DNA from: Streptomyces sp. NRRL B-1347
Lineage (GTDB): Bacteria; Actinomycetota; Actinomycetes; Streptomycetales; Streptomycetaceae
Direction of reading: 5' to 3'
DNA length: 64,000 nucleotides
Assembly (NCBI RefSeq): GCF_000720325.1
Contig: NZ_JOJM01000004.1
Location: 124,001 to 188,000, forward strand
Every line of letters starts with the position of its first letter. The first letter of the stretch is position 1. Positions 32,206-55,744 of the stretch are shown in pieces. The notes below the pieces were generated by a model. It searched no databases. It was not told where the DNA came from and was given only the letters and a program-made list of their open reading frames with translations. The translations under genes were made by a program, and so were the position numbers.

Positions 32206-32273
32206 GCGGAAAGCCGGGCCCCGCCCGCCGACCGCACACCCCACACCGACACCCCCCAGGAGACGTCTTCGCC

Positions 32274-32876: not shown

Positions 32877-32891
32877 GCGCGGGGGAATCCG

Positions 32892-34538: not shown

Positions 34539-34568
34539 CCCGGCGCACGGGCATCTGACGGAACAGCT

Positions 34569-34587
34569 CCCGCCGTGACAGGGCGGG
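34569..34587 (+). terminator. Possible weak terminator after SulP gene
   Basis: A 6-bp stem CCCGCC/GGCGGG with a 7-base loop about 30 bases past the stop. Weak. Confidence 0.35.
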
Positions 34588-34781
34588 CGTGGCTCGGACG
34601 CGGAGTGACCCCGCGCCCGGGCCGCGCCCGCCCGCGCGTTCTCAGGGGGGCACCTGGTGTGTCAACCGCCCCTCCGGTCCCGCTGGCCCGATCACCTCTC
34701 TTGTGAGTGATGGTCCATGCACCTAGCGTCACGATCGTTTGCAGAACGGTTTCCGCACACCATCGTGGAGGGGATGTCGTC

Positions 34782-39941: not shown

Positions 39942-40395
39942 GAAGAACCCTCTTTTCTTTTTACCGCCGCAGGGCGTTCTGCTCATGTCGGAATGGCCCA
40001 CGGCCGGTGCGGTTCCCGGTGTGGGCAGTCGTGGACGTACGCATAGTTCGGAGTGGTTTCGGAATCTCAGGGACGAGGTTCTCCCGTGGGGGGAACGTGG
40101 CTCTTCCTCCTGTGAATTCCCGACATCCGCCGGGCGTGGCCCCTGGCGTCACAGCGGTCCATCCAGTCCCAACTGGCGCTGAGTACGGGGGAGTTGTGCG
40201 TACGCTGGACAGTCGGCACAGCGCCCACCTGGGCCGGACCGGCTGCCGCACCACCTCCTGCCGCCGCAACCACCTATTGACTCTCAGCGGTTACTGTAAC
40301 TATCGTTAGTCGTACGCTGGTTAACTCGTACAAGATGCGACTATGCCACAACCGACGTGGGTTTAGCTACGGGGCAAGTAGGGAGATGGTGCTGA
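39942..40395. other. Divergent control region of the encapsulin cluster
   Basis: About 450 bases with no supported gene. The right part (40265-40340) is AT-richer and holds the promoter candidate 40277-40306 and the palindrome within it. It should control both the LAL regulator and the first biosynthetic operon. Confidence 0.55.
40277..40306 (+). promoter_or_regulatory. Candidate promoter with palindrome in spacer
   Basis: TTGACT and TATCGT with an 18-base spacer, about 90 bases before the aldehyde dehydrogenase. The spacer contains GTTACTGTAAC, a perfect palindrome (40290-40300), a plausible operator. Confidence 0.45.
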
Positions 40396-42030
40396 GTGGA
40401 CGACGGGGAGAGGTCTGTCGAGGAGCTGGAATTACCCACTGCGAAAGAATCCGGCCTCCTGATGTACCCGGCCTACATCGGCGGAAAGGACGTGGAGCAT
40501 CCGACGGGCCGCTATGTCCATACGGTGACGGCCCGCGCAATTCTGGAAGACACGTTCGCGAGCCTCCGTCTCAAGCGTGACCTGGACGACGGAGTGGTGG
40601 ATCCGCGCTCCGCCGCCGACCGGGTGGCGGGCGGCTGCACGCTGGCCGACGAGGAGATGATGGAGCAGGCGCTGGCAGCGGCCGCCGCCGCCGCGCCCGC
40701 CTGGGCCCGCACCCCGCTCGACACGCGCGTGGAGATGGGCCGTCAGATCGGCAAGCGCCTGCGCGCGCACCGGGAAGAGATCGTCGAGGTGCTCGTCGCC
40801 GAGGGCCAGCCGCGCTCGCTCGCGGGCCCCTGCATCGACGAGTACTGGATCGCCGACTTCAGCGACGAGACGCTGACGTGGTGCGCCGAGCAGATGCACT
40901 TCGAGCGCGACGACGGCCGCCGCAGATCCATCGTCCGGCGGGTCCCCGACGGCGTCGTGTGCGTGAACCCGCCGCAGAACGCCTCGACGCCCAACGCCCT
41001 GTTCGGGATCACGGCGATGCTGGCCGGCAACACCGTCGTGGTCCGCACCCCGCGCAGCGTGCCGCTGGCCACCACCTACGTCCTGCGCGAGATCGTGGTC
41101 CCGGTCCTCGACGAGTTCCAGGCGCCGCCCGGCACCCTCAACGTCCTGTGCGCGCCGCCCACCATGGACACCTGGCTCGCCAGCCCGCACGTCAACGACA
41201 TCGTGTACGTGGGCAGCACGACCAAGGGCCTGGCCTTCGAGCAGCAGGCGATCGCCGCGGGGAAGAAGCCCATCCTCGAACTCGCCGGGAACGACTGCTG
41301 CGTCGTGTGGCGGGACGCCGACCTGGACGGCGCGGTCCGCGCGCTGACCGAGACCTTCCGCCAGTCCGGTCAGATCTGCAACATCCCCAACCAGGTCGTC
41401 GCGCACCCCGCCATCGCCGACGAGCTCCTGGACCGGCTCGTCCGGGCCGCACGGGAGGTACGGCCCGGCTACCCCGACGAGCCCGGCGTGGTCCTCACGC
41501 CCGCGCTGATGGCGGACGCGTTCTTCGCCAACATCAGCGACGCCGTGTCCAAGGGCGCGGTCCTGGTGCACGGCGGACGGCGCCTGGAGGTCGACGGGAC
41601 GGCGTCGGACACCGGGTTCTTCCTGGAGCCGACCGTGCTCCGGGTGGACGGCCTGCACCACGCGCGGAGCCTGACGGCCGTCCGCGACGAGACCTTCTCC
41701 CCCCTGCTGCCGGTCGTCGTCCCCGCCCCCGGCCCCGACGACCAACTGCTCGACGACGTCCTGGCCTTCGTGAACGAGAACAAGTACGGACTGCGCAACT
41801 CGCTGTGGTCCGACGACCTGAGCGTGCTGGAGCGCGCCGCCAGCACGGTGACCAACTGCGGCGTGCTCAACCTGAACGACTCGCACTCCGGCTTCCTGCC
41901 CTTCCTGCCCACCCACGGAGGCACGGGCCTCACCGGCGGCGCCTTCGGCGAGGCCAACTACCTGATGCTGCGCACCTCACGCCTCCAGGGCGTCGACTTC
42001 GTCCGCCCCAGCGGTCACACGCCCAGCTGA
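40396..42030 (+). CDS. Aldehyde dehydrogenase family enzyme
   Basis: 544 residues. Rossmann part and catalytic part of the ALDH superfamily: nucleophile Cys in SGQICNIPN, general-base Glu region at ILELAGND, and later ETFSPLLPV. The N-terminus has about 50 residues more than a typical ALDH, of mixed charge, and the loop RVPDGVVCVNPPQNAS replaces the usual PWNFP. Aldehyde or acyl-CoA reduction/oxidation with NAD(P) is expected; the extra N-terminus could be a targeting or partner segment. It starts at GTG 40396 with GGGAG upstream and is followed 19 bases later by a START-domain gene. First gene of the encapsulin cluster. Confidence 0.88.
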   Translation: MDDGERSVEELELPTAKESGLLMYPAYIGGKDVEHPTGRYVHTVTARAILEDTFASLRLKRDLDDGVVDPRSAADRVAGGCTLADEEMMEQALAAAAAAAPAWARTPLDTRVEMGRQIGKRLRAHREEIVEVLVAEGQPRSLAGPCIDEYWIADFSDETLTWCAEQMHFERDDGRRRSIVRRVPDGVVCVNPPQNASTPNALFGITAMLAGNTVVVRTPRSVPLATTYVLREIVVPVLDEFQAPPGTLNVLCAPPTMDTWLASPHVNDIVYVGSTTKGLAFEQQAIAAGKKPILELAGNDCCVVWRDADLDGAVRALTETFRQSGQICNIPNQVVAHPAIADELLDRLVRAAREVRPGYPDEPGVVLTPALMADAFFANISDAVSKGAVLVHGGRRLEVDGTASDTGFFLEPTVLRVDGLHHARSLTAVRDETFSPLLPVVVPAPGPDDQLLDDVLAFVNENKYGLRNSLWSDDLSVLERAASTVTNCGVLNLNDSHSGFLPFLPTHGGTGLTGGAFGEANYLMLRTSRLQGVDFVRPSGHTPS

Positions 42031-42049
42031 CCGAAGAGGAGTTCCGCCG

Positions 42050-42514
42050 ATGTCATTCCAGACCGTCGAGATCGAAACAACGCGCAGTGCCGGGGACGTC
42101 TACGCGGCGCTGTGCCGGTACGAGGAGTTCCCGCGGTACGCGCCGGACCTGATCTCCGTCGAGGTGGAGAAGGACCGCAGCCACTGGGTGCTCGCCTTCC
42201 GCGGCAACAGGGTCTCCTGGACCCAGGCCGACCAGGGGCTGCTGCACCAGCGCACCAGGGAATTCGAGCAGACCGATGGCGACTTCGTCACCCTCGCCGG
42301 ATCGTGGCGGGTGGAGGCCCGCAGCAGCAGCGCGTCCCTCGTGCGCTTCCAGGTCTCGTACGGCACGAGCGTGGCGCATCTGGCCGGTGCCATCGACCCC
42401 ATGATCGGCCGCGTCCTCGTGCGGACGGTCTGCGACATCGTCTCCGGCGTCTGCCCCGGCAGCAGGATCGTCAAAGGCGGCGAATTGCGCCACGACCTGA
42501 CGCCCACTGGCTGA
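42050..42514 (+). CDS. START/SRPBCC (polyketide cyclase-like) protein
   Basis: 154 residues. The opening TVEIETTRSAGDVYAALCRYEEFPRYAPDLISVEV is that of polyketide cyclase/COQ10-like SRPBCC proteins, here shortened to its start. The fold makes a deep pocket for hydrophobic or aromatic molecules and is used by cyclases and lipid carriers. It follows the ALDH in one transcript that ends at a T-tailed hairpin. No polyketide synthase is in the window, so a cyclase on a polyketide is not expected; a substrate-binding or condensing role in the cluster is inference. Confidence 0.85.
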   Translation: MSFQTVEIETTRSAGDVYAALCRYEEFPRYAPDLISVEVEKDRSHWVLAFRGNRVSWTQADQGLLHQRTREFEQTDGDFVTLAGSWRVEARSSSASLVRFQVSYGTSVAHLAGAIDPMIGRVLVRTVCDIVSGVCPGSRIVKGGELRHDLTPTG

Positions 42515-42562
42515 ACGCAAAGGTCACATCGTGCGCATTGCGTAGAATTCCGCGGTGATTTC

Positions 42563-42609
42563 GGCCGGGGCTGCCCTCTCCCTTGTGGGAGGGCGGCCCC
42601 GGCCTTTTT
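42563..42609 (+). terminator. Intrinsic terminator with T-tract
   Basis: A 20-bp GC-rich stem (GGCCGGGGCTGCCCTCTCCC against its near-complement) with a TTGT loop, then five T. It is the clearest rho-independent terminator in the window. It ends the ALDH-START transcript, so the aspartokinase must have its own promoter. Confidence 0.9.
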
Positions 42610-42860
42610 CATGGGCTCGGAACCGATCTCTTGCGCGCGGATCACCGCTACCGCCCCGACGGTGGGGCGGCCCGACTCCCGGAGTGGCAAGCCGCAGGTC
42701 AGGCCGGTGTCCATCACGTATCCATGTGATGTCGGGCCGATTGGTTTCCGGGTCCCGCAGACCCCGTATTCACGGGATGATTCGGCAGGGCGATCCGGGA
42801 TTCAATGCACCTGGTAACGGTGATTGCTTCGACCAGAGCGTTGAGACGTCAGGAAGCCGC
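42610..42860. other. Leader upstream of aspartokinase operon
   Basis: 250 bases without a gene after the intrinsic terminator. It should carry the promoter of the aspartokinase-to-FAD operon. A 6-bp dyad CATCAC/GTGATG (42712-42731, 8-base spacer) is the only element seen. Confidence 0.4.
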
Positions 42861-44135
42861 ATGAATATCACCATTCAGAAGTTCGGTGGAAGTTCACTGG
42901 CAACGGATGAGCACGTGTGCGCCGTTGCCGACCGGGTCGCCCGGAGCCACCGGCAGGGCCGGTCCGTGATCGTCGTGGTGTCCGCACGCGGGGACACCAC
43001 GGACGCCCTGATCCGCACGGCGGGCGCGGTCAGCTCCCGCCCCTGCCCGAAGGAGACCGACAAACTCCTCGCCACGGGCGAGCTGGCGTCGGCCGCCCTG
43101 CTCGCCATCGCGCTGCGCGAACGAGGCGTGCCCAGCGTCTCCCTGTCCGGCCCGGAGGCCGGACTGCGGGCCGACGGCCGGCCCGGCGCGGGCACCGTCA
43201 CCGCGGTCGACACCGGGGCGGTACGGGACCTGCTGCACCGCCAGCACGTCGTGGTGGTCGCCGGATTCCAGGCCCGCGGCGCCGACGGCGGTGTGATCAC
43301 GCTCGGCCGCGGCGGTTCCGACACCTCGGCGGTGGCGCTCGCCGTCGCCCACGGAGCGGAAGTCTGCGAGATCTACACGGACGTCAACGGCATCCACAGC
43401 GCCGACCCCCGGCTCGTCGCCGCGGCCGGGGTCCTGCCCGCCGTCGAGGCCGCCGTGATGATCGAGATGGCGGCCTCGGGCGCCCGCGTCATGCACTCCC
43501 GCGCCGTCGAACTGGCCGCCACCCACGGCATGGACATCGTGGTCCGGCACGCCCACGGCCAGGGAAAGGGAAGCCTCATCATCGGAAGGAGCAGCGAAGT
43601 GCCACGTGTGCCGACACACGACGGAAAGGCCACCATCACGGCCATCACGCACGAAGCCGGAGCCGCCCAGGTCGTCCTGCGCGCGGACTGCGAATCGGGT
43701 CTGCCGCCGCTTTCGGAAGCCGACGTCTTCACGGCGCTCGCCGGACACCACATCGCCATCGACTCGGTCGGGCGGTGGTCGCCGGCCGACGACGGCGTGC
43801 TCATGAGCTTCTGCGTCCCCCTTCAGGAACTCGACCAGGTACGTACGGCACTGACCTCGATCGTCGGCCTCGGCAGCGGCACACTGCGCGTGCACCAGCC
43901 GCTCGGGAAGGTCTCCGTGGTCGGCGTCGGCCTGCTCAGCGACCCGAGCACCGCGGCCACCGCGATCAGCGAACTCACCCGGCACGGCATCCTCAGCGCG
44001 GGCGTGTTCTGCACGCCCATGCGCGTGTCCCTGCTGGTGCCCGAGGACCGCGTGAAGGAAGCCGTGGTGATCCTCCACCGCCGCTTCGGCCTGGACGGCA
44101 ACGACGAGCACACCGAAGAGCTGGCCGTCGCCTGA
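42861..44135 (+). CDS. Aspartate kinase of the encapsulin cluster
   Basis: 424 residues. The KFGGSS motif is at residues 7-12, the Asp-kinase domain continues to about 250, and two ACT-like domains follow (about 265-415). It phosphorylates L-aspartate, the first step toward aspartate semialdehyde. The cluster copy is probably a dedicated supply enzyme and may escape the feedback control of the housekeeping copy; key feedback residues cannot be judged by eye. AGGAAG precedes the ATG at 42861. The frame continues after its TGA straight into the aldolase, see that entry. Confidence 0.93.
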   Translation: MNITIQKFGGSSLATDEHVCAVADRVARSHRQGRSVIVVVSARGDTTDALIRTAGAVSSRPCPKETDKLLATGELASAALLAIALRERGVPSVSLSGPEAGLRADGRPGAGTVTAVDTGAVRDLLHRQHVVVVAGFQARGADGGVITLGRGGSDTSAVALAVAHGAEVCEIYTDVNGIHSADPRLVAAAGVLPAVEAAVMIEMAASGARVMHSRAVELAATHGMDIVVRHAHGQGKGSLIIGRSSEVPRVPTHDGKATITAITHEAGAAQVVLRADCESGLPPLSEADVFTALAGHHIAIDSVGRWSPADDGVLMSFCVPLQELDQVRTALTSIVGLGSGTLRVHQPLGKVSVVGVGLLSDPSTAATAISELTRHGILSAGVFCTPMRVSLLVPEDRVKEAVVILHRRFGLDGNDEHTEELAVA

Positions 44136-44879
44136 ATCCGGTGCCCCCCGCATCCCCCGGCACCTCCCCGCACGATCGCCGTCGAGACCTCCCTCGACGA
44201 GCTCGTCGGTGAACTGTCCGCGAACGGCGTCGACGGCATCGTCGTCCACAAGGGCACCGCCCGGCACCTGGATCCGCGCTGGTTCGCGAAGACCTCACTG
44301 ATCGTCCACCTCAGTGCCAGCACCGCGCACGCCCCGGACCCGGACGCGAAGTACCTGGTCGCCAGCGTCGAGGACGCGCTGCGGCTCGGCGCCGACGCGG
44401 TGAGCGTGCACGTCAACGTCGGCTCGACCACCGAACGCGAACAGGTCGCCGACCTCGCCCGCGTCGCCGAGGCCTGCGGCCGCTGGAACGTCCCGCTGCT
44501 CGCGATGATGTACGCCCGCGGCCCGTTCGTCGAGAACCCCCTCGACCCGGTCCTGCTCCGACACGTCGCGACCCTCGCCGCCGACCTGGGCGCCGACATC
44601 GTGAAGGTCCCGCACCCGGGCACCGAGGAACTCATGGCCGAGCTCGTCGGCTGCTGCCCCATCCCCGTCGTCGTGGCGGGCGGCCCGGCCCGCAGCGACA
44701 CCGGCGAACTCCTGGAGCACGTGGCGTCGACGATGCGCGCCGGCGCGGCCGGAGTCGCCATGGGCCGCAACGTCTTCCAGGCGCCCCGGCCCGGCGTGCT
44801 CGCCCGGCAGATCGCCGCGCGCGTGCACGAACGCCCCGCGATCATCCCGGCGCTGAGCAGCACGCTCTCCGCGGGCTGA
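44136..44879 (+). CDS. DhnA-type class I aldolase (ADH synthase, GriI-like), no start codon seen
   Basis: The frame encodes a DhnA/ADH-synthase-like protein. LIVHLSAST, VASVEDALRLGADAVSVHVNVGS, the Tyr motif LLAMMYARG (codon 44511) and the Schiff-base Lys in ADIVKVP (codon 44604) are all visible, as is IPVVVAGGP and the late AMGRNVFQ. GriI-type enzymes join aspartate semialdehyde and DHAP to give a seven-carbon amino sugar acid used for 3-amino-4-hydroxybenzoate. The first 35-40 residues of the family, with the VPxDHG strand and its catalytic Asp, are absent. The frame opens right after the aspartokinase TGA and has no ATG, GTG or TTG before the conserved region; the first in-frame GTG is at 44400. 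The gene is truncated, mis-sequenced, or read as a fusion past the stop. Confidence 0.72.
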   Translation: MRCPPHPPAPPRTIAVETSLDELVGELSANGVDGIVVHKGTARHLDPRWFAKTSLIVHLSASTAHAPDPDAKYLVASVEDALRLGADAVSVHVNVGSTTEREQVADLARVAEACGRWNVPLLAMMYARGPFVENPLDPVLLRHVATLAADLGADIVKVPHPGTEELMAELVGCCPIPVVVAGGPARSDTGELLEHVASTMRAGAAGVAMGRNVFQAPRPGVLARQIAARVHERPAIIPALSSTLSAG

Positions 44880-45043
44880 GGCGCCCCGCGCCGCCCCGCC
44901 TCCTCGCGCCGCCCCGTCCCCTCGCGACGCCGCGCCGCTGCTCCCCGCGACCGCGCCGCCGCTGCCGACGCCGGGTCCGGCACGACGCCACGCCGGCCCG
45001 CGCACCCCGCCCGCGAACCACCGGCTCCACGGAAGGACTCGCC

Positions 45044-45958
45044 ATGAGGACCGCCCAGAGCATGGCCGCCGCCCGAGACACCCGTCAGCTGCTCGACGAT
45101 CCCTCGCTGCACGCACACTCGCCCGGAGAGGAGTTCGCCCAGGCCGCCTCGCTCGACGGCGGCGGCGACGACTTCGCGCTCTCCTTCCGGAGCTATCTCC
45201 CCACCGCGTTCCCCCTGTTCGCCGAGCGGCCCCGCTACACCGTGCGCCAACTGCTCAACGCGGCGACGGTCCGCGACCGCGGCAAGGCCGTGCCCTACAT
45301 AGAAGAGACCCGCCCGAACGCCGTGGCCCACGCCGCCTCCGGCACCAGCTACGAAGCGACCCTGGAGGCGGCGTTCGGCCCGGGCCTCGCCGCGACGGAC
45401 TTCACCGACCTGACCGTGTCCCTGCCCGTCCCCGACGGCCTGCTCGCCCACCCCCGGCTGCTCGCCGCCTTCATCGACCGGCGCCTGCTGGTGCGCGTCG
45501 GCGTCCGCGAGAACCAGACGCTGCTGCACGGCAGCGCCGACGGCGTCGTCCCGGGCCTGCTCAACCTGCCCGGACTGCGCCGCGTCAGCACCGACCACGA
45601 CCTGCTCGGCCAGCTGACCGAGGCCGCGGCCCTCGTCGAGGAGACCGGCGGTTCCTGCGACGGCGTCGTCGCCCACCCCTCGCTGTACTGGAAAGCCGTC
45701 GAATCCGGCCTCCTGGACCGGGTCGCCACCGCGGGCCTGCGCATCGCCCGCACCCGGATGATGCCCCGCGACCACATGCTGCTCGCGGACTTCCGCGCGG
45801 CCGCCACCCTCCTCGACCCGCAGGACTCGACCCTGACCCTGCGCCGGGGCGCAGGACGCGACGGCGCGGACCTCATCGAGGCCCGCTGCCGCCTGGCCCT
45901 CGCCGTGCACCTCCCGCAGCACTTCGTGCTCGTCGGCCCGGGGACGGCGACGGCATGA
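45044..45958 (+). CDS. HK97-fold encapsulin shell protein (Family 3-like)
   Basis: 304 residues with the HK97 major-capsid layout. An N-terminal arm (1-55) is followed by an E-loop region with PYIEETRPNAVAHA. The spine helix and P-domain read VPDGLLAHPRLLAAFIDRR, with VRENQTLLHGSADGVVPGLL after it. The A-domain has CDGVVAHPSLYWKAV and ends in AVHLPQHFVLVGPG. No portal, protease, tail or other phage gene lies near. It sits inside a biosynthetic operon and overlaps the sulfotransferase by four bases, so it is a compartment shell, not a prophage gene. Family 3 encapsulins are known from computation in actinobacterial biosynthetic clusters. GGAAGGA precedes the ATG. Cargo is unknown. Confidence 0.87.
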   Translation: MRTAQSMAAARDTRQLLDDPSLHAHSPGEEFAQAASLDGGGDDFALSFRSYLPTAFPLFAERPRYTVRQLLNAATVRDRGKAVPYIEETRPNAVAHAASGTSYEATLEAAFGPGLAATDFTDLTVSLPVPDGLLAHPRLLAAFIDRRLLVRVGVRENQTLLHGSADGVVPGLLNLPGLRRVSTDHDLLGQLTEAAALVEETGGSCDGVVAHPSLYWKAVESGLLDRVATAGLRIARTRMMPRDHMLLADFRAAATLLDPQDSTLTLRRGAGRDGADLIEARCRLALAVHLPQHFVLVGPGTATA

Positions 45959-46878
45959 GCGAGACGCGCCCCAGGGTTCTCTACATCACCGGCATGATGC
46001 GCTGCGGCAGCACCATGCTGGGCAACGTCCTCAACGAGGTGCCCGGCGTCGTCCACGTCGGCGAGCTGTACTACCTGTGGCGCAACGGGCTGCTGCGCTC
46101 GGGGACCAACTCCACCTGCGGCTGCGGCGAGGAGATCACCGCCTGCCCGCTGTGGTCCGCGGTGCTCGGCTCCGGCAACGTGCCCGACACCGCCGACTAC
46201 GCCCGCCTGATGATCGCCGTGCAGTCCGGCTACCTGCGGGCCCGGCACACCGCGCTGCGCCTCGCCGAGGCACGCGGGCTGCGCACGCCCCCCGCCCCCG
46301 TCACCGAGGCGACCGGCGCCATCCGGTCGCTCTACCAGGAGCTCGGCAGGCAGCTCGGCGTCCGGCTCGTCGTCGACAGCTCCAAGTACCCGGCGGAGGC
46401 CGCCGCCCTGCTCGGCCGCCGCGACCTCGACGTACGCGTCCTGCACATGGTGCGCGACCCGCGGGCGACGGCGTACTCGTACCAGCGGGGCAAGAGCTAC
46501 GTCGCCGAGATGGACCCCGTGCGCAGCACCGGGTACTGGTCCGCGATCAACGCCGCGTCGGACCTCATCGGCGTCGCCGCCGGAGACCGCTATCTGCGCG
46601 TGCGCCACGAGGACTTCGCGCGCCGCCCGCAGCACGTCCTCGGCGAGGTGATGCGCTTCGCGGGCCTGACCGAGCCCAACCCGCTCGACGAGAAGGGCCG
46701 CGTCACCCTCGGCGACAACCACACCGTCACCGGCAACCCCGACCGTCTCAACCGCGGCCAGGTCACCATCACCGCCAGCGACCGCTGGCGCACCGAACTG
46801 GACTTCTGGCCCCGGGCCTGCGCCGTGGCCGGAGCCGGACTGCAGATGTACCGCTACGGCTACGCCGGGATCCGCTAG
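45955..46878 (+). CDS. PAPS-dependent sulfotransferase
   Basis: 307 residues. The 5'-phosphosulfate loop is ITGMMRCGSTMLG (residues 10-22), and the 3'-phosphate motif is LHMVRDPRATAYS, both standard for sulfotransferases. A CGCGEEITACP segment holds three Cys, perhaps a small metal or disulfide site. It moves sulfate from PAPS to a hydroxyl, amine or sugar. The ATG overlaps the encapsulin stop (ATGA), so the two are translationally coupled, which makes this enzyme a leading cargo candidate. PAPS would come from cysD, cysN and cysC in the same operon. Confidence 0.93.
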   Translation: MSETRPRVLYITGMMRCGSTMLGNVLNEVPGVVHVGELYYLWRNGLLRSGTNSTCGCGEEITACPLWSAVLGSGNVPDTADYARLMIAVQSGYLRARHTALRLAEARGLRTPPAPVTEATGAIRSLYQELGRQLGVRLVVDSSKYPAEAAALLGRRDLDVRVLHMVRDPRATAYSYQRGKSYVAEMDPVRSTGYWSAINAASDLIGVAAGDRYLRVRHEDFARRPQHVLGEVMRFAGLTEPNPLDEKGRVTLGDNHTVTGNPDRLNRGQVTITASDRWRTELDFWPRACAVAGAGLQMYRYGYAGIR

Positions 46879-46935
46879 CCCGCGACCCGGCCGACGCGCA
46901 ACCACCGTACCGACCGCGGAGACAGGGAAAGAACA

Positions 46936-47694
46936 ATGGACTTAGGGATTCAAGGCAAGGCCGCCCTCGTCGCCTGCGCCAGCAGCGGCCTCGGCCTCGG
47001 CGTCGCCCGCGCCCTCGCGGCGGAAGGCGCGCACGTGTCGATCTGCGCCCGCGGGGGCGAACGCCTCGCCGCGGCACACCGTGAGCTCGACTCCCTCGGA
47101 CAGGGAAAAGTCCGCAGCGAGAGCGTGGACATGAGCGATTCCGCGGCGGTCGCGCGATGGGTGGAGAACACCCGCGAGGAGTTCGGCGCCGTCGACATCG
47201 TGATCAGCCACACCGGCGGCGTCCAGCAGGGCACGGTGGGGGAGTTCGGCGTCGACGACTACCGCACCGCCGTCGGCACGACCATGCTGCCGCACATGGC
47301 CCTGGTCGTCGCGGCCACCCCGTACCTGAAGGAGAACGGCTGGGGCCGGCTCGTGCTGATCACCTCGGAGTCGGTGCACCAGCCCATGCCCCACAACGTG
47401 CTCTCCGGCGTGGCCCGCACCGGACTGCACGCCTACGCCCGCAACCTCGCGGACGACTTCGGGCGCACCGGCGTCACGGTCAACGTGCTCGTGCCCGGCT
47501 ACCACCGCACCCCGGCACTGCGCGGGCCCGGCGGCACGGACCCGGACCGGGCCGCCCGCGAGGTGCCCCTCGGCCGGGTGGGCGACCCCGACGACTTCGG
47601 GGCGCTCGCCGCCTTCCTCGTCAGCGCGCGGGCCGCGTTCGTCACCGGCGCCCAGCTGCTGGTCGACGGCGGCAACACGCGCGCGCCGGTGTAG
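46936..47694 (+). CDS. Short-chain dehydrogenase/reductase with altered catalytic motif
   Basis: 252 residues of the SDR family. The cofactor motif is ACASSGLGLGVA, and the end reads TGAQLLVDGGNT, as in FabG-like enzymes. After LITSESVHQ the usual Tyr-x-x-x-Lys is replaced by HNVLSGVARTGLHAYARN, so both catalytic residues are missing, although Ser is kept. Such atypical SDRs exist, and their reaction is often unclear. Codon 3 is TTA (46942-46944), requiring bldA tRNA. GGGAAAGAACA precedes the ATG. It lies 57 bases after the sulfotransferase. Confidence 0.88.
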   Translation: MDLGIQGKAALVACASSGLGLGVARALAAEGAHVSICARGGERLAAAHRELDSLGQGKVRSESVDMSDSAAVARWVENTREEFGAVDIVISHTGGVQQGTVGEFGVDDYRTAVGTTMLPHMALVVAATPYLKENGWGRLVLITSESVHQPMPHNVLSGVARTGLHAYARNLADDFGRTGVTVNVLVPGYHRTPALRGPGGTDPDRAAREVPLGRVGDPDDFGALAAFLVSARAAFVTGAQLLVDGGNTRAPV

Positions 47695-47745
47695 CCCTGC
47701 CCGGCCCCTCCACTCCCCGCAGACCACGGCACACGGAAGTGAAGC

Positions 47746-49428
47746 ATGCCCCAGACCGAAGACCTCGCCGGGCGCGTCCCGGCCGACCTCGCCGAGAAGT
47801 TCCGAGCCGAAGGATGGTGGCGTCGCGACGCGACCCTCCTGGACGACGTGCGCCGGCACGCCCTGGCCCACCCCCAGCGCAAGGCGATCGTCTGCCGGCA
47901 CACCGACGGCCGCCCCACCGAGAGCCTGACGTACGCGCAGCTCGTCGCGGCCGTCGAGCGGCTCGCCGCCGGACTCGCCGGGCTCGGCGTGCGCCACGGC
48001 GACGTCGTCACGCTCCAACTGCCCAACTCCTGGCAGCTCATGGCCCTGTCCCTGGCCTGTGCGCGCATCGGCGCGGTGGCCGGGCCCGTGCTGCCGATCA
48101 TGCGGCGGCGCGAGGTGGGCTTCATCCTGGAACTCACGGAGTCCCCCGTCTACATCGCCCCCGCGACGCACCGGGGCTTCTCCTTCGCCGAGATGAGCGG
48201 AGACCTGGCCGAGCGGACCCCCACGCTGCGCCACCGGGTGCTGCTCGGCGCCGCGGACCTGGACCCGGACGGGCCCGGCCTGCGGGGCGCGCTCGACTTC
48301 GACGACACCCTCCTCGGCGCCACCGGCCCCGGCGCCGCGGGCGACGTGCCGATGCGCGAGGCCGGGCCCGACGACATCGCGTACATCATGTTCACCTCGG
48401 GCACCACCGGCGAGCCCAAGGGCGTGGTGCACAGCCACAACACGCTCTACGCCACCAACCGCACGCAGGCCGAGGCGCTCGGGGTGACGGGCGAGGACGT
48501 CACCGCGATGGGGTCGCCGACCACCCACAACGCGGGCTACACCTGGAACTTCGTGATGCCGCTGCTGCACGGCGCCACCTGTGTGCACATCGACCACTGG
48601 GATCCGGCGGTGATGCTGCGCGCCCTGGAGGAGGAACAGGTCACCTTCTTCATGGGCGCCCCGCCGTTCATCGTCGACCTCGTCGCCCAGCAGCGGGCCG
48701 ACCGCCGCGACCTCAGCAGGCTCAGGACCTTCGCCACGGGCAGCGCGCCGATCCCGCCGGTCCTGGTGGAGCAGGCGCACGACGTGCTGGGGTGCCGCCT
48801 CTACGCGCTGTGGGGCATGACCGAGAACGGCTGCGTGACGGTGACCCGTCCCACGGATCCCCTGATGCGCGCCGCCGAGAGCGACGGCACGGTCCTCACG
48901 GGCATGGAGATCCGCGTCGTCGACGCGCCGAACGGCTCCCCGGTGGTGCCGGGCGCCACCGGCCGCCTCCAGGTGCGCGGCGCCCACCAGTGCCTGGGCT
49001 ACTACCGCCGCCCCGACACCTACCGCGAGTCGCTGAGCGACGACGGCTGGTTCGACACCGGCGACCTCGCCCGCGACGACGGCCACGGCGGCATCCGGAT
49101 CGTCGGCCGGGACAAGGACCTGATCTCCCGCGGCGGCGAGAAGATCCCGGTGGTCGAGGTCGAGGCCGCCCTCCTGCGCCACCCGGAGGTCAAGGACGTC
49201 GCCGTCGTCGGCTACCCCGACGACCGGCTCGGCGAGCGGGCCTGCGCCGTCATCGTCCCCGAGGACGGCGAACCGCCCGCCCTTGCCGCGCTGCAAGAGC
49301 ACCTGCGGGTCCTGGGCATGGCCAAGCAGTACTGGCCCGAGCGCGTCGAACGCAGCGCGGCGCTGCCCAAGACCCCCACAGGCAAGGTGCAGAAGTTCAA
49401 GCTCAGGGCGCAACTCGCCCACTCATGA
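47746..49428 (+). CDS. AMP-dependent acyl-CoA synthetase/ligase
   Basis: 560 residues of the ANL superfamily. The phosphate loop is IMFTSGTTGEPKG, the adenylate loop is LWGMTENG, the ribose-binding Asp is in GWFDTGDLAR, and the C-terminal lysine lies in LPKTPTGKVQKF. The sequence resembles cyclohexanecarboxylate- and fatty-acid-CoA ligases. It likely activates a carboxylic acid for the acyl-CoA dehydrogenase that overlaps its end. The start is the ATG at 47746, about ten bases after GGAAGTGAAG. It is part of the encapsulin operon. Confidence 0.93.
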   Translation: MPQTEDLAGRVPADLAEKFRAEGWWRRDATLLDDVRRHALAHPQRKAIVCRHTDGRPTESLTYAQLVAAVERLAAGLAGLGVRHGDVVTLQLPNSWQLMALSLACARIGAVAGPVLPIMRRREVGFILELTESPVYIAPATHRGFSFAEMSGDLAERTPTLRHRVLLGAADLDPDGPGLRGALDFDDTLLGATGPGAAGDVPMREAGPDDIAYIMFTSGTTGEPKGVVHSHNTLYATNRTQAEALGVTGEDVTAMGSPTTHNAGYTWNFVMPLLHGATCVHIDHWDPAVMLRALEEEQVTFFMGAPPFIVDLVAQQRADRRDLSRLRTFATGSAPIPPVLVEQAHDVLGCRLYALWGMTENGCVTVTRPTDPLMRAAESDGTVLTGMEIRVVDAPNGSPVVPGATGRLQVRGAHQCLGYYRRPDTYRESLSDDGWFDTGDLARDDGHGGIRIVGRDKDLISRGGEKIPVVEVEAALLRHPEVKDVAVVGYPDDRLGERACAVIVPEDGEPPALAALQEHLRVLGMAKQYWPERVERSAALPKTPTGKVQKFKLRAQLAHS

Positions 49429-49439
49429 GGGGTGTAGCC

Positions 49440-50585
49440 ATGCACTTTCAGTTCTCCGACGACCAACACGCCCTCGCCAAGCGGGTGCGTGCCTTCATCT
49501 CCGGCCAGGTGGCGCCCTTCGCCACCGAGCACGACCGGACCGAGACCTTCCCCGCGGGCTACTTCGCCCGCTTCGCCGACGAGGGCCTGTTCGGCCTGGG
49601 CATCCCGGTCGAGTACGACGGACAGGGCCTGGACGCGGTGAGCGTCGGCGTGGCTCTCGAAGAGGTCGCCCGCGGCGAGCCCGCGGCCTGCCACCCCGTC
49701 CTGAACGCCACCCTGATCGGCTCGATCCTGAGCCAGAACGGCACGGAGGCCCAGCAGGCCGCGTACCTGCCGCTCATCGCCCGCGGCGAGGCCATCGTCG
49801 CGCTGTGCCTCACCGAGCCCGACCACGGCACGGACGCCGGGGGCATCGAGTTCGAGGCCGCCCCCGACGGGGACGGCTGGCGCCTCTCGGGCACGAAGAC
49901 GTCCATCATGGTCGGCGCGTACGCCACCCACGGCCTGGTCTTCGCCCGCACCGAGGACACGGGCAGCCGGGGCATCACGGCCTTCTTCGTGCCCCTGGAC
50001 CAGCCGGGCGTCCGACGCGAGCGGCTGCGTGACCTCGGGCACCGGGCCGGGGGCCGCGCCACCCTCGTCTTCGACGACGTCGCCGTCGGCCCGGAGCACC
50101 GGATCGGCGCCGCAGGCGAGGGCCTGGCCAAGGTCCTCTCCGGGTTCAGCTACTCGCGGGCGCTCATCGCCCTCAACGCGATCGCCGCCGCGCAGGTCGC
50201 CCTCGACGAGGCGTTCGCCCACGCCCGCGAGCGCCACGCCTTCGGCAAGCCGCTCGGCACCTTCCAGGGCGTCACGTTCCCGCTGGTCGAGCACGCCACC
50301 TATCTCAAGGCGGCCCGGCTGCTGGCGTACGAGGCGCTGTGGCGCAAGGACCAGGGCCTCGAACACCGCGTCGAGGCCAACATGGTCAAGTCGTGGGCGC
50401 CCAAGGCGGCCGTGGACGCCATCCACCAGGCGCTGCTCACGCTCGGGCACCTGGGCTGGTCGGTGGACCGCCCGATGGAGCGCCGGCTGCGGGACGCCAT
50501 CGGACTCCAGCTGGCGGACGGCACGGCCAACGCCACCAAGCTGGCGGTCGCGCGGGAGCTCCTCGGCCGCGCGTACGCGCCGTGA
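49440..50585 (+). CDS. Acyl-CoA dehydrogenase family protein with Asp at the base position
   Basis: 381 residues. N-terminal helices, the flavin beta domain (CLTEPDHGTDAGG, WRLSGTKTSI) and a C-terminal helical domain (AFGKPLGTFQGV) define an acyl-CoA dehydrogenase. The region that usually holds the base (IYEGTxxI) reads LADGTANAT, so Asp may replace Glu. GAGGGG stands before the ATG at 49440; a start at 49425 would overlap the ligase stop by ATGA. It probably dehydrogenates the CoA ester made by the ligase, or acts as an oxygenase-like relative. Confidence 0.88.
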   Translation: MHFQFSDDQHALAKRVRAFISGQVAPFATEHDRTETFPAGYFARFADEGLFGLGIPVEYDGQGLDAVSVGVALEEVARGEPAACHPVLNATLIGSILSQNGTEAQQAAYLPLIARGEAIVALCLTEPDHGTDAGGIEFEAAPDGDGWRLSGTKTSIMVGAYATHGLVFARTEDTGSRGITAFFVPLDQPGVRRERLRDLGHRAGGRATLVFDDVAVGPEHRIGAAGEGLAKVLSGFSYSRALIALNAIAAAQVALDEAFAHARERHAFGKPLGTFQGVTFPLVEHATYLKAARLLAYEALWRKDQGLEHRVEANMVKSWAPKAAVDAIHQALLTLGHLGWSVDRPMERRLRDAIGLQLADGTANATKLAVARELLGRAYAP

Positions 50586-50619
50586 AAGCCACCGGGCCGC
50601 GTGCGCGTGCCGAAGCTCA

Positions 50620-50661
50620 GGGTGAGGTGCTCACGGTGAGGTGCTCAGGGTGAGGAGTGAG
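50620..50661 (+). repeat. Three 14-bp tandem repeats before cysC
   Basis: GGGTGAGGTGCTCA, CGGTGAGGTGCTCA and GGGTGAGGAGTGAG. The last copy contains the cysC ribosome site (GAGGAG), so copy changes could alter spacing between the acyl-CoA dehydrogenase and cysC. Confidence 0.8.
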
Positions 50662-50663
50662 AA

Positions 50664-51206
50664 GTGACGACGATATGGCTGACCGGACTGCCCAGCTCCG
50701 GGAAGACCACACTGGCCCGCGAACTGACGGCGCGCCAGTCCGCGCGGCGGGCCGTGGAACACCTCGACGGCGACGTCCTGCGCCGTGAGATGTTCCCCGA
50801 GCTCGGCTTCAGCAGGGACGACCGGATGGAGAACATCCGGCGCATCGGAGACCTGGCGGTGCTCCTCGCCCGCCACGACGTGCTGGTCGTCGTCTCCGTC
50901 ATCGCGCCGTACCAGCAGGCGCGTGACGCCGTGCGCGCAGCCCACCGCGCGCAGGGCCTGCACTTCGTCGAGGTGCACGTGCACGCGCCGCAGACGGTGT
51001 GCGCCGCCCGCGACGTCAAGGGCCTGTACGCGCGGGCCGCGAGCGGCGCGCTGTCCGGGCTCACCGGGGCGGGCGACGTCTACGAGGTGCCCAGCGCACC
51101 GGACGTCCAGGTGCGCACGGCCGAGCGCGGCGTCGAGGAGTGCGTGCTGACCATCGAACAGGCCCTCGCCGCCACCGAGCGGCGAGGCAAGGAGGCACTG
51201 GTATGA
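50664..51206 (+). CDS. cysC: Adenylylsulfate (APS) kinase
   Basis: 180 residues. The P-loop is LTGLPSSGKTT (residues 7-17), followed by LDGDVLRREMFPELGFSRDDR, shortened here to its main residues, and the RDVKGLYARA lid, all typical of CysC. It phosphorylates APS to PAPS, the sulfate donor for the sulfotransferase upstream. Streptomyces normally use the PAPS or APS reductase route for assimilation; a cysC beside a sulfotransferase marks a sulfation pathway. GTG start at 50664 with GAGGAG upstream; it overlaps cysD by four bases. Confidence 0.95.
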   Translation: MTTIWLTGLPSSGKTTLARELTARQSARRAVEHLDGDVLRREMFPELGFSRDDRMENIRRIGDLAVLLARHDVLVVVSVIAPYQQARDAVRAAHRAQGLHFVEVHVHAPQTVCAARDVKGLYARAASGALSGLTGAGDVYEVPSAPDVQVRTAERGVEECVLTIEQALAATERRGKEALV

Positions 51207-52117
51207 GCGTGACCACCCTGGTCGCCGCCGACACGAGTACGACGGCGCTGGAAGCCGAGGCCATCCACATCCTGCGCGAGGTGGCCGGGGAGTTCGACCG
51301 GCCCGTCGTGCTGTTCTCCGGCGGCAAGGACTCGACCGTCCTCGTCCACCTCGCCGTCCGGGCGTTCGCCCCCGCGCCGGTCCCCTTCGAGCTGCTGCAC
51401 GTGGACACCGGGCACAACTTCCCCGAAGTCCTCTCCTTCCGCGACCGGTTGGCGCGCGAGCACGGGCTGCGGATGACGGTGGCCGCCGTGCAGGACTGGA
51501 TCGACAGCGGCGAGCTCGAAGAGCGGCCCGACGGGCTGCGCAACCCGCTGCAGACCGTGCCGCTGCTCAAGACCATCGAGAACGGGCGCTACGACGCCGC
51601 CATCGGCGGGGGACGCCGCGACGAGGAACGCGCGCGGGCCAAGGAACGCGTCTTCAGCGTCCGCAACGCGTTCGGCCACTGGGACCCGCGCCGTCAGCGC
51701 GTCGAGCTGTGGAACCTCTACAACGGGCGGCACCGCCCCGGCGAGCACGTGCGGGTCTTCCCCCTGTCCAACTGGACCGAACTCGACGTATGGCGCTACA
51801 TCGACCGGCACGACGTGCCGCTGCCATCCCTGTACTACGCCCACACGCGCCCCGTGTACCGGCGCGACGGCATGCTCCTGACGCCGGGCCCGTGGGGCGG
51901 ACCGCGGCCCGACGAGCCGCTCACCGAGCGACTGGTCCGCTACCGCACCGTCGGCGACGGCTCGTGCACCGGCGCCGTGGAGTCCGCGGCGCGCACCACC
52001 ACGGACATCATCCGGGAGATCCAGGCCTCCCGGCTCAGCGAGCGGGGCGCCAGCAGGGCCGACGACCAGATGTCCGAGGCCGCCATGGAGGACCGCAAGC
52101 GGGAGGGGTACTTCTGA
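51203..52117 (+). CDS. cysD: Sulfate adenylyltransferase subunit 2 (ATP pyrophosphatase)
   Basis: 304 residues. The PP-loop SGGKDST is at residues 40-46, then LLHVDTGHNFPE and the C-terminal EDRKREGYF that is typical of CysD. With CysN it makes APS from sulfate and ATP. The ATG at 51203 lies inside the cysC stop (ATGA), and its own stop overlaps cysN (TGATG), so cysC, cysD and cysN are translated as a unit. The longer frame from 50999 begins inside cysC and is not used. Confidence 0.96.
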   Translation: MSVTTLVAADTSTTALEAEAIHILREVAGEFDRPVVLFSGGKDSTVLVHLAVRAFAPAPVPFELLHVDTGHNFPEVLSFRDRLAREHGLRMTVAAVQDWIDSGELEERPDGLRNPLQTVPLLKTIENGRYDAAIGGGRRDEERARAKERVFSVRNAFGHWDPRRQRVELWNLYNGRHRPGEHVRVFPLSNWTELDVWRYIDRHDVPLPSLYYAHTRPVYRRDGMLLTPGPWGGPRPDEPLTERLVRYRTVGDGSCTGAVESAARTTTDIIREIQASRLSERGASRADDQMSEAAMEDRKREGYF

Positions 52118-53424
52118 TGACACGGGATCTGCTGCGACTGGTGACGGCGGGCAGCGTGGACGACGGCAAGTCCACGGTGGTCGGCCGTCTGCTGTACGAC
52201 ACCAAGTCGGTGCTCGGCGACCAGATCGACGCGGTGCTGCGCGCCAGCGTCCAGCGCGGGCTCGACACCCCGGACCTGGCCCTGCTCGTCGACGGGCTGC
52301 GGGCCGAACGCGAACAGGGCATCACCATCGACGTCGCCTACCGCTACTTCAGCACCGCGCGCCGCACGTTCATCCTCGCCGACACGCCGGGCCACGTGCA
52401 GTACACGCGCAACACCGTGACCGGCGCGTCCACCGCCGACCACGCCGCGCTGCTGTGCGACGCGAGCAAGGGGATGCTGCCGCAGACCCGCAGGCACCTC
52501 GCGGTGATGGCGATGCTCGACGTGCCGGGCCTGACCCTCGCCGTCAACAAGATGGACCTGGTCGACTTCGCCGAGGACACCTTCCTGGAGATCCGCGACG
52601 CGTTCGTACGCCAGGCCCTCGACCTCGGCTACGCCGCCGACCGCGTCCTTGCGGTCCCCGTGTCCGCGCTCACCGGCGACAACGTGGTCACCACGTCACC
52701 GCGCACGCCCTGGTACGAGGGACCGACGCTCCTGGAGCGCCTGGAGACCGTCGAGGTGGACCGCCCGGCGGCCGGGGCAGCCTTACGGATGCCCGTGCAG
52801 TACGTGCTGCGCGACCAGCGCGACGGCTACCGCGGCTACGCGGGCCGGATCGCCGCCGGGTCCGTGCGCGCGGGCGACGAGGTCGTCGTCCTGCCCGACG
52901 GCGTACGCACCGTCGTCGACCGGGTCGACACACCCGACGGCGACGTGCCCGAGGCGGCCGCGGGCAGCACGGTGAGTCTGGTGCTGCGCGACCAGGTGGA
53001 CATCGGGCGAGGCGATCTGATCGCCTCGGTCGCCCGGCCTCCCGAGGTCACCGACCAGCTCGACGCGACGGTGTGCTGGCTGGGCGACACCCCCCTGGAG
53101 GCCGGTGCGCGGCTGCTGCTCAAGCACGGCACCCGTACCACCGCCGCCCAGGTCACCGAGCTGATCTCCCGGTTCGACGAACAGAGTCTGAGCGTCGTGG
53201 CCCGCCCCTCGGCTCTGAACCTGAACGACACCGGGCGGGTCCGTGTGCAGGTCGCCAAGGGCCTGCCGGTGGACGGCTACACCGAGTGCCGCTCCACCGG
53301 CACCTTCATCCTGATCAACCGCTCCGACGGCAACACGGTCGGGGCGGGCCTGATCGGCGACCCGATGTCGGCGTTCGTCGGTCTGGCGACGCCGTCCGCG
53401 CGGCCCGAGCCGGTGACCCCATGA
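52117..53424 (+). CDS. cysN: Sulfate adenylyltransferase subunit 1 (GTPase)
   Basis: 435 residues with an EF-Tu-like GTPase domain: G1 GSVDDGKST, G2-region EQGITIDVAYRYF, G3 DTPGHVQY, G4 NKMD. Two beta-barrel domains follow. It drives sulfate adenylylation by CysD through GTP hydrolysis. No CysC domain is fused. One Leu codon is TTA (52783-52785), so expression may need bldA. It overlaps cysD by one base and the next gene by four. Part of the PAPS supply in the encapsulin operon. Confidence 0.96.
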   Translation: MTRDLLRLVTAGSVDDGKSTVVGRLLYDTKSVLGDQIDAVLRASVQRGLDTPDLALLVDGLRAEREQGITIDVAYRYFSTARRTFILADTPGHVQYTRNTVTGASTADHAALLCDASKGMLPQTRRHLAVMAMLDVPGLTLAVNKMDLVDFAEDTFLEIRDAFVRQALDLGYAADRVLAVPVSALTGDNVVTTSPRTPWYEGPTLLERLETVEVDRPAAGAALRMPVQYVLRDQRDGYRGYAGRIAAGSVRAGDEVVVLPDGVRTVVDRVDTPDGDVPEAAAGSTVSLVLRDQVDIGRGDLIASVARPPEVTDQLDATVCWLGDTPLEAGARLLLKHGTRTTAAQVTELISRFDEQSLSVVARPSALNLNDTGRVRVQVAKGLPVDGYTECRSTGTFILINRSDGNTVGAGLIGDPMSAFVGLATPSARPEPVTP

Positions 53425-54890
53425 CCGGCGACACGACCTGGACTTCGACCTTCGACACGACCCCGGGCGCGGGGGACCGCCCGCCGCGCGCGCCCGTCGT
53501 CGCCGTGATCGGGGCGGGCGCGAGCGGCACCCTCGCCGCCGTGCAGCTGCTGCGCCGGTGCACGGACGGCGGACGCCGTCTGCACCTGCTCCTGATCGAC
53601 CGCACCGGCGAGTTCGGCCCGGGCGTCGCCTACCGCACCCGCGACCCCCACCACCTGCTCAACGCGCCCGCCAGAGCCATGAGCGCGCTCGCCGACGACC
53701 CGGACCACTTCGTCCGGTGGGCGGCGGCCCAGGGCCGCGACGTCACGCCCGGCACGTTCCTGCCGCGCGACGACTACGGCCGCTACCTCACCGGGACGCT
53801 GCTCGCCGAGGAGGACCGCGCGGCCGGGCTCGTCACCGTCGAGCACCTGACGGACGCGGTCGACGAGGTCCGGCCGGACAGCACCGGCGTGCACCTGACC
53901 TTCGCCGACGGCGCACCGCTGCGGGCCGACGCGGTGATCCTGGCCCTCGGCGTGGGGACGGACGACCCGCTGGCAGCCCTGATGCCCGCCGCACCGGACC
54001 GCTATCTCGCGAACCCGTGGAGCGACGGGGCGCTGCACCGCATCGAGGACGGCCAGCGGGTCCTGGTCCTCGGCACCGGACTGACCATGGTGGACGTGGC
54101 CCTCTCGCTCAGCAGGCACCACCCCCGCCTGACGGTGCACGCGCTGTCCCGGCACGGCCTCGTGCCGCACGCGCACCGCCCGGCCGCCGCACGCGCCACG
54201 CCGCCCACCGCACCGCCCCGGGCCCGGTCCGTCGGCGACCTGCTGCGCCACGCCCGCCGGCACCGCACCGACAACCCGGGCCACTGGCGCGAGTACGTCG
54301 ACGACCTGCGCCCCCATGTCGCCGAGCTGTGGCAGCAGTTGGACCTGGACGCACGACGCCGGTTCCTCGCCCATGTGAACCCGCTGTGGAACGTGCACCG
54401 CCACCGCATCGCACCCGAGGCGGGCCGGGACCTCGACCGGCTGATCCGCTCCGAGCGGCTGCGCGTCGACGCGGGACACGTACGCGGCGTCCGTGGCGAC
54501 GGACCGGCGGGCTACCTCGTCGACGCGGTGATCGACGGCTGTCCGCGCACCGTGCGGGCCGACTGGATCGTCAACGCCGCGGGCTTCTCCCGGCGTCTGG
54601 TGGACCAGCGCAATCCGCTGCTCCAGCAGATGCTCGCCGACGACGTGGTCCGCCCCGACGCCACGCGCCTGGGCATCGACACCACGGGGGACGGACGGGT
54701 CGTCGGCGCCCACGCCGCGAGCCGGGCGCTGTTCGCGCTCGGGGCACTGCGTCGCGGCACGCTCTTCGAGAGCAGCGCGGTCCCCGAGATCCGCGGGCAG
54801 GCCGCGGCCATCACGGCCGCGGTGCTCGCGATGCTCGCGGCGCCGCGGGCACGGGATCCGCTGCCGCTGGTGGGAGGCGTGCGGCGGTAG
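53421..54890 (+). CDS. FAD/NAD(P)-binding protein (monooxygenase-like)
   Basis: 489 residues. The first Rossmann site is VAVIGAGASGTLAAVQLL, followed by GPGVAYRTRDPHHLLNAPA, the signature of the FAD-NAD(P)-binding family (PF13454). A second nucleotide site lies at VLVLGTGLTMVD, and a WIVNAAGF region follows. Relatives are N-hydroxylases or uncharacterised oxidoreductases. The ATG overlaps the cysN stop by four bases, so this is the last gene of the operon; it may tailor the sulfated product, by inference. It ends 57 bases before the convergent CGNR gene. Confidence 0.87.
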   Translation: MTGDTTWTSTFDTTPGAGDRPPRAPVVAVIGAGASGTLAAVQLLRRCTDGGRRLHLLLIDRTGEFGPGVAYRTRDPHHLLNAPARAMSALADDPDHFVRWAAAQGRDVTPGTFLPRDDYGRYLTGTLLAEEDRAAGLVTVEHLTDAVDEVRPDSTGVHLTFADGAPLRADAVILALGVGTDDPLAALMPAAPDRYLANPWSDGALHRIEDGQRVLVLGTGLTMVDVALSLSRHHPRLTVHALSRHGLVPHAHRPAAARATPPTAPPRARSVGDLLRHARRHRTDNPGHWREYVDDLRPHVAELWQQLDLDARRRFLAHVNPLWNVHRHRIAPEAGRDLDRLIRSERLRVDAGHVRGVRGDGPAGYLVDAVIDGCPRTVRADWIVNAAGFSRRLVDQRNPLLQQMLADDVVRPDATRLGIDTTGDGRVVGAHAASRALFALGALRRGTLFESSAVPEIRGQAAAITAAVLAMLAAPRARDPLPLVGGVRR

Positions 54891-54947
54891 GGGCCCGCGC
54901 CGCCGCGCTGGCGGCTGAGTGCGGAGAACGGCCCCGCGGCGGCGGTG

Positions 54948-55574: not shown

Positions 55575-55616
55575 GGCCACCACCCTTTCCCCTGCGGTCG
55601 GAACGTTCAGGTCACT

Positions 55617-55673
55617 GTAACCAACTATTGGCTATGGCTGGTAGGTAACCGGCATCAGCTCTATGATGGTTAC
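55617..55673. promoter_or_regulatory. Three GTAACC sites in divergent promoter region
   Basis: GTAACC at 55617-55622 and 55645-55650, and its complement GGTTAC at 55668-55673, spaced about 28 and 23 bases. The outer pair is a longer dyad (GTAACCA/TGGTTAC). This fits an operator for the CGNR regulator. Confidence 0.5.
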
Positions 55674-55744
55674 GGATGGGGGATCCGGCGGCTTCCGCCG
55701 TCCCCGGCACCGATCGATCCGCAGCAGCTAGTGAGAGGAATCCC

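Follow-up and report, generated by a model that had tools for sequence, protein, structure and literature searches.

The window, that is the whole stretch of 64,000 nucleotides analysed here from Streptomyces sp. NRRL B-1347 (contig NZ_JOJM01000004.1, positions 124,001 to 188,000 of the forward strand), carries a biosynthetic gene cluster in which the gene of a predicted Family 3 encapsulin shell protein overlaps that of a sulfotransferase of the 3'-phosphoadenosine 5'-phosphosulfate (PAPS) type. A sulfotransferase gene was found within 5 kb of the shell gene (start to start) in all 65 distinct actinobacterial loci compared, and the cluster was read, with evenly balanced confidence, as a nanocompartment for the PAPS-dependent sulfonation of a small C7 amino-polyol. 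The genes and features of the region were as follows (loci and genomes are referred to by our handles, L and G, respectively):

37053-40001, minus strand: LuxR-type (LAL-like) regulator, divergent from the cluster (Pfam GerE and AAA_16); relatives in L032, L034, L035 and L036
40396-42030, plus strand: aldehyde dehydrogenase (ALDH; Pfam Aldedh, E 1.2e-59), present in 6 of 6 window-type loci
42050-42514, plus strand: SRPBCC-fold (polyketide cyclase/dehydrase) protein (Pfam Polyketide_cyc, E 8e-16)
42563-42604, plus strand: terminator-like hairpin in the SRPBCC/aspartokinase gap (18 pairs and a T tail; fold -48.2 kcal/mol, z -5.96)
42861-44135, plus strand: aspartokinase (Pfam AA_kinase and ACT; NCBIfam aspartate kinase families)
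44175-44879, plus strand: remnant of a DhnA/DeoC-type aldolase (BagB/FevI-like), start and N-terminal ~40 codons lost
45044-45958, plus strand: Family 3 encapsulin shell protein (NF041188, 319.5 bits; predicted HK97 fold)
45955-46878, plus strand: PAPS-type sulfotransferase (Pfam Sulfotransfer_3, E 1e-9; AlphaFold 2 model, pLDDT 93.9; top fold match 4gox)
46936-47694, plus strand: short-chain dehydrogenase/reductase (SDR)-fold protein (Pfam adh_short_C2), Ser157/Arg161 in place of the usual Tyr/Lys
47746-49428, plus strand: AMP-forming acyl-CoA ligase (Pfam AMP-binding, E 1.5e-84)
49425-50585, plus strand: acyl-CoA dehydrogenase (Pfam Acyl-CoA_dh domains; 49440 is a possible start)
50664-51206, plus strand: APS kinase, CysC (Pfam APS_kinase, E 2.9e-49; TIGR00455 above cut-off)
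51203-52117, plus strand: sulfate adenylyltransferase small subunit, CysD (TIGR02039, 436.6 bits, cut-off 396.6)
52117-53424, plus strand: sulfate adenylyltransferase large subunit, CysN (TIGR02034, 511.6 bits, cut-off 336.1)
53421-54890, plus strand: FAD/NAD(P)-binding protein, NAD_binding_9 (Pfam PF13454, E 1e-36), in 4 of 6 window-type loci
54948-55583, minus strand, opposite to the cluster: CGNR zinc-finger/ABATE-type regulator
55676-57784, plus strand: MFS transporter fused to a HAD phosphatase domain (Pfam MFS_1 and Hydrolase/HAD_2)

The shell reading frame (304 residues) was intact and scored well above the cut-off of 180 bits of the curated NCBIfam model for family 3 encapsulins, and structure prediction returned an HK97 fold with confidence. 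Both the profile search and the structure prediction had been suggested as checks by an earlier sequence-only reading of this DNA, which had placed an HK97-fold shell gene here, and their results bear it out: with a curated model above its cut-off, the predicted fold and a biosynthetic cluster devoid of phage genes, the protein is identified by its sequence as a Family 3 encapsulin. A prophage capsid gene stranded by metabolic genes has practically negligible probability: the HK97 fold and a Pfam Phage_capsid match of 21.1 bits, below the threshold of 24.2, could be quoted in its favor, but a PHROG search at E 0.001 found nothing for the shell, a scan of ten cluster proteins gave no hit to any phage structural family, in line with the earlier reading, and the metabolic context was conserved in 65 loci. 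The label of phage remnant or phage major capsid protein was rejected on the sub-threshold Pfam score and the lack of a PHROG match. In the PDB, a sequence search with the shell gave HK97 capsids only (best E 0.25) and no Family 3 structure, and two fold searches had no Family 3 entry among the 50 matches listed for each. A shell protein that no longer assembles, serving as a scaffold or being a decayed remnant, is very improbable; a truncated aldolase next to it and a relative (L090, genome G169) with the shell gene in two adjacent pieces point that way, but the intact frame, the confident predicted fold and 55 invariant columns in an alignment of 38 Family 3 shells point against it. Among the residues identical in 38/38 aligned shells were E199, G202-G207 (GGSCDG with the invariant Cys205), H211, Y215 and W216.

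The 65 loci comprised the window, 49 loci from one genome scan and 18 further regions, minus 3 duplicates; all counts cover actinobacteria, myxobacterial and Mesorhizobium Family 3 clusters lying outside the sample. Sixteen genomes of the genus, one of them the window's, were above the family cut-off: regions were taken from G025, G031 (a duplicate of L063), G129, G178, G208, G238, G252, G272, G338 and G415, while G065, G067, G236, G354 and G409, which offered short loci only, stayed outside the 65, each with sulfotransferase and SDR matches beside the shell. G169 was also included, although below the family cut-off and with its shell in two pieces. Nine genomes of the class had the shell, one being the window's; seven of the other eight were taken (two as duplicates) and G708 was left out. 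Presence was scored by tblastn within the sampled stretch (E 1e-10, 28% identity, raised to 45% for ligase and ALDH and to 42% for SDR, over 40% of the query). The control consisted of twenty arbitrary 20-kb stretches of Streptomyces DNA, cut at round coordinates from 7 complete or near-complete genomes.

The pairing of shell and sulfotransferase proved stronger than the earlier reading had claimed. In 57 of the 65 loci the two lay within 2 kb of each other (start to start), and no control stretch out of 20 had either of the two sulfotransferase kinds described below; the only other control matches were one transketolase-type, one HAD and one aldo/keto reductase protein. The distances of shells and of sulfotransferases correlated over 49 loci (r 0.84, the best of 300 shuffles reaching 0.22). 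When 868 predicted proteins of 50 loci were clustered, the shell was found in 50, the sulfotransferase in 49, the SDR in 48, the ligase in 40 and the acyl-CoA dehydrogenase in 36. Two unrelated sulfotransferase families were paired with the shell lineage: the window's type in 57 loci and, as a separate pairing, a second kind in 8, which sits with an aldo/keto reductase and was identified as PF19798 (Sulfotransfer_5) in the 3 of 8 tested by Pfam. A second Family 3 shell class was seen in L084-L089: these shells are 30-41% identical to the window's and adjoin a PF19798 sulfotransferase, an aldo/keto reductase and an adenylation-carrier-reductase protein.

This constancy bears on a different view of the compartment, in which the shell stores or buffers a finished sulfated metabolite or protects the ligase and acyl-CoA dehydrogenase, the adjacent sulfotransferase being a matter of operon history. 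Such a role is unlikely: the ligase was present in 44/65 loci and the acyl-CoA dehydrogenase in 36/65, and in 22/65 the sulfotransferase is not shown to be directly downstream (7 of 50 loci measured were arranged otherwise, the rest being without measurement), but both enzymes are less constant than the sulfotransferase, and the pairing also holds with an unrelated sulfotransferase family. In the sulfonation reading, it is most likely the sulfotransferase, together with its product, that the shell encloses.

The shell stop and the sulfotransferase start share ATGA (45955-45958), so the four-base overlap noted earlier is real, while the coupled production drawn from it found weak evidence in the sequences: the sulfotransferase lay directly 3' of the shell on the same strand in 43/50 loci, an overlapping start was possible in 27 of these, and exactly four bases were shared in 10. 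The proposal of one operon beginning at 40396 did not hold. Since the hairpin at 42563-42604 separates the ALDH and SRPBCC genes from the aspartokinase, they probably form their own transcript, apart from the shell operon; in relatives this pair is found at the cluster's opposite end, and SRPBCC adjoins ALDH in 5/6 window-type loci, namely the five whose DNA stretch extends that far. The boundary is argued from the strength of this single site and not from the number of sites, as the scan gave 2 terminator-like sites against 2.8 expected from shuffles. An Rfam scan of 39900-55700 had no match at the gathering threshold.

The genes feeding the shell-sulfotransferase pair differed between loci. 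By precursor genes the 65 were divided into carrier protein/transketolase (37), DegT aminotransferase (11), second sulfotransferase (8), aspartokinase-aldolase (6, including the window) and transaldolase (3) types, names based on how individual members matched Pfam and on the NCBIfam matches of the aldolase. The carrier protein, typed by its C-terminal EDWGE pattern and similar to LysW, was detected by tblastn in 34 of the 37 carrier-type loci; neither it nor the transketolase genes were found in the six window-type loci (0/6). The window's subtype also occurred in Saccharothrix coeruleofusca (L032), Actinophytocola oryzae, 'Nocardia' sp. NRRL S-836, Lentzea pudingi and Actinomadura flavalba, and in a tree of 53 shells the six formed one clade (99/93), the rest being mostly of carrier type. 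The topology suggests a single exchange of precursor genes, with the midpoint root leaving its direction unfixed. Among 394 genomes of the class the shell was present in 9 (E 1e-40) and the aldolase in 18 (E 1e-60), both only in the window's genome, G000, and the subtype is therefore rare. The small transaldolase type (L063, L107 and L108) combined a transaldolase/fructose-6-phosphate-aldolase-like protein, a HAD phosphatase and a dehydrogenase-like protein with shell, sulfotransferase and CysCDN. CysD was present in 33/65 and CysN in 32/65 loci overall.

The aspartokinase/aldolase pair of the sequence-only reading stood in its first half only. The aspartokinase is intact, most likely starting at ATG 42861 in agreement with the starts of its homologues, and is a second copy in the genome, the other being only 37% identical. 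The aldolase frame 44175-44879, in contrast, has no ATG, GTG or TTG before 44400, and its relatives extend some 40 residues further at the N-terminus, including MIVPLDHSV; the lost part presumably holds a catalytic Asp (MJ0400 literature). The window protein aligned from about residue 37 of its relatives and from position 42 of 257 in the NCBIfam profile, and 18 of the 19 aldolase matches in the 394 genomes of the class started at query residue 4-9, only the window's at 37. No other aldolase copy was found in the genome, and searching the window by tblastn for the lost segment turned up no convincing match (best E 0.013, on the opposite strand near position 35 kb). A full-length barrel with a start, as in a functional ADH-synthase-type aldolase, was thus not found in this genome. 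Because the remaining cluster genes appear full length compared to relatives and the truncation is unique among the 19 matches, the loss is either recent or an assembly fault. By NCBIfam the aldolase is related to BagB/FevI and ADH synthase. An aromatic 3-amino-4-hydroxybenzoic acid (3,4-AHBA) product was rejected, the second enzyme of that route (PF01959) not being found in the window genome; G417 and G419 also had none, and in G416 and G418 it and the shell were on separate contigs (the L032 genome was not included).

The SDR-fold protein departs from the classical Tyr-x-x-x-Lys pattern. Ser and Arg replaced this catalytic pair in 48/52 aligned SDRs, comprising every shell-linked member, and the four exceptions, from the Herbidospora loci L066, L068, L072 and L078, were second copies located apart from the shell. 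The Ser/Arg pair also appears in the alignments of the nearest solved relatives, 1o5i and 2z1n, and the variant is therefore not special to shell clusters. With the usual pair replaced, it is not assured that sulfation is preceded by an ordinary SDR redox reaction, as the main text of PMC8346489 proposes.

In the route we propose, aspartokinase would supply aspartate semialdehyde, judging from its family, and the aldolase, from its kinship with BagB/FevI, would condense it with a three-carbon phosphate to a C7 2-amino-6-oxo sugar acid; for the corresponding step of the BagB/FevI family, passages of PMC6692506 give dihydroxyacetone phosphate and aspartate semialdehyde as substrates. Lacking a 3,4-AHBA synthase, the cluster would leave this product unaromatised. 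Its phosphate would be taken off by the HAD domain, as co-occurrence suggests, PAPS would be made by CysD, CysN and CysC, whose families scored above curated cut-offs, and the sulfotransferase, probably in or on the shell given its constant place beside it, would sulfonate a hydroxyl. The SDR-fold protein, CoA ligase, acyl-CoA dehydrogenase, ALDH and SRPBCC protein would tailor the molecule at some stage, and the MFS pump would export it. The sulfate may be retained on the product or lost for ring closure, and both outcomes are kept.

Several observations weigh against this reading. The number of loci with the window's sulfotransferase, 57, is inflated by common ancestry, five of the 65 stretches are shorter than 15 kb, and shell and SDR distances correlated more weakly (r 0.49) than those of shell and sulfotransferase; L063, L107 and L108 had no SDR match by tblastn. 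The HAD phosphatase, in itself an argument for the reading, was present in 9/9 aldolase and transaldolase loci and 0/56 others, a pattern that would fit a phosphorylated donor in these routes and an unphosphorylated product elsewhere, although the queries were drawn from the two positive types and 1/20 control stretches also matched. The aldolase matches in NCBIfam were below cut-off with the exception of one subfamily model, and the aldolase step looks broken in this genome, so that the strain may not make the compound. PAPS is large relative to an encapsulin pore. Alignments of sulfotransferase, SDR, ligase and acyl-CoA dehydrogenase displayed no conserved terminal tag for cargo loading. The conserved C-terminal RYGY of the sulfotransferase was considered as such a tag but discarded, since many enzymes of the sulfotransferase type end in GY.

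The fate of the sulfate is where a further explanation enters. At E 0.01 the only solved sulfotransferases recovered by a PDB sequence search were 4gox (olefin-synthase) and 4gbm (curacin CurM), and in a fold search with the predicted model 4gox ranked top and 4gbm sixth, with tyrosylprotein sulfotransferases second to fifth. In the olefin-synthase and curacin domains the sulfate is subsequently lost. It is tentatively possible that here, too, sulfate serves as a leaving group: a hydroxyl of the C7 amino-polyol would be activated and the amine would displace the sulfate, giving an N-heterocycle or aziridine, with the shell shielding the cell from an alkylating intermediate. The commonest shell clusters carry the azinomycin-route set (an acyl-kinase fused to a peptidase, a semialdehyde dehydrogenase and a split transketolase), and passages of PMC9570651 describe a C7 amino acid that is sulfated before its amine displaces the sulfate to form the aziridine; chloromyxamide, the sole characterised Family 3 product named in the main text of PMC8346489, contains 6-chloromethyl-5-methoxypipecolic acid. 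Against this, the fold is matched almost as closely by the tyrosylprotein sulfotransferases, the azinomycin aminotransferase was absent from the genes common to carrier-type loci, the window's subtype is without the carrier route, and within annotation reach no conserved candidate cyclase of unknown family was present among genes common to at least 4 loci. A dedicated aziridine cyclase was likewise not seen among the shared neighbour genes. The broader proposition is doubtful, namely that shell and sulfotransferase form an invariant core served by at least five precursor routes, with two unrelated sulfotransferase families on one shell lineage, where sulfate is a temporary leaving group and an alkylating, ring-closing intermediate is formed only inside the shell.

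At the cluster flanks, 17 further shell loci had a relative of the CGNR regulator (18 with the window), and MFS and HAD, fused in the window, were separate genes in L033. Three consecutive genes directly upstream of the LuxR-type regulator (31869-36950) encode a carbonic-anhydrase-domain protein, a sulfate permease and an alkylsulfatase; the alkylsulfatase was rejected as a cluster member, as tblastn of 80 shell loci gave no match and its link to the cluster is unproven.

The constant pairing of shell and sulfotransferase with exchangeable precursor genes narrows the question to whether the sulfotransferase is the cargo and whether its sulfate is kept or lost; if it leaves, such clusters would point to a compartment in which reactive nitrogen heterocycles are made. 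The aspartokinase-aldolase variant offers a lead to products of another class than those of the carrier-protein type, with the truncation a warning against the window strain as producer.

Compared to known systems, the shell type itself is not new. Family 3 'natural product' encapsulins in clusters with a sulfotransferase-SDR pair were published computationally by Andreas and Giessen in 2021 (PMC8346489), in agreement with the earlier reading, and the window resembles them in its NF041188 shell, biosynthetic context, sulfotransferase-SDR pair and Streptomyces host. The remaining neighbours listed by that reading (ligase, acyl-CoA dehydrogenase and PAPS synthesis) were likewise confirmed by family matches, but its idea of a sulfated molecule combined with a protein shell had been anticipated: the main text of PMC8346489 already suggests sulfated products and shells as reaction vessels sequestering part of a pathway. 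In that text, aspartate kinase or aspartokinase does not occur, aldolases are mentioned for Family 4 and in the references, and sulfotransferases are termed common rather than constant; its six classes may already include the window's subtype. The literature searched contained no experimental function, cargo or structure of a Family 3 shell, and neither it nor the main text of PMC8346489 (supplements not covered) had the aspartokinase-aldolase variant, the constant sulfotransferase or, for these shells, the notion of sulfate as a leaving group. What appears to be new is the aspartokinase-aldolase precursor variant together with a testable general shell-sulfotransferase rule.

With the azinomycin/vazabitide azabicycle route, in which according to passages of PMC9570651 a kinase, reductase, transketolase and aminotransferase build a C7 diamino-dihydroxy acid that is then sulfated, the cluster would have in common that a C7 amino acid is built and passes through a sulfated intermediate. 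The carrier-type shell loci have its kinase, reductase and transketolase families and no aminotransferase among their shared genes, whereas the window is without the genes of that route and has aspartokinase and aldolase instead. The 3,4-AHBA pathway (BagB/FevI/GriI with BagC/FevH/GriH) has the same aldolase family, but the window genome is without the PF01959 partner, its aldolase is truncated, and aspartokinase, shell and sulfation genes are added. Finally, the olefin-synthase and curacin (CurM) sulfotransferases, the only solved sequence matches, are domains of polyketide synthases, in contrast to the window's enzyme, which is free-standing and located beside a shell.

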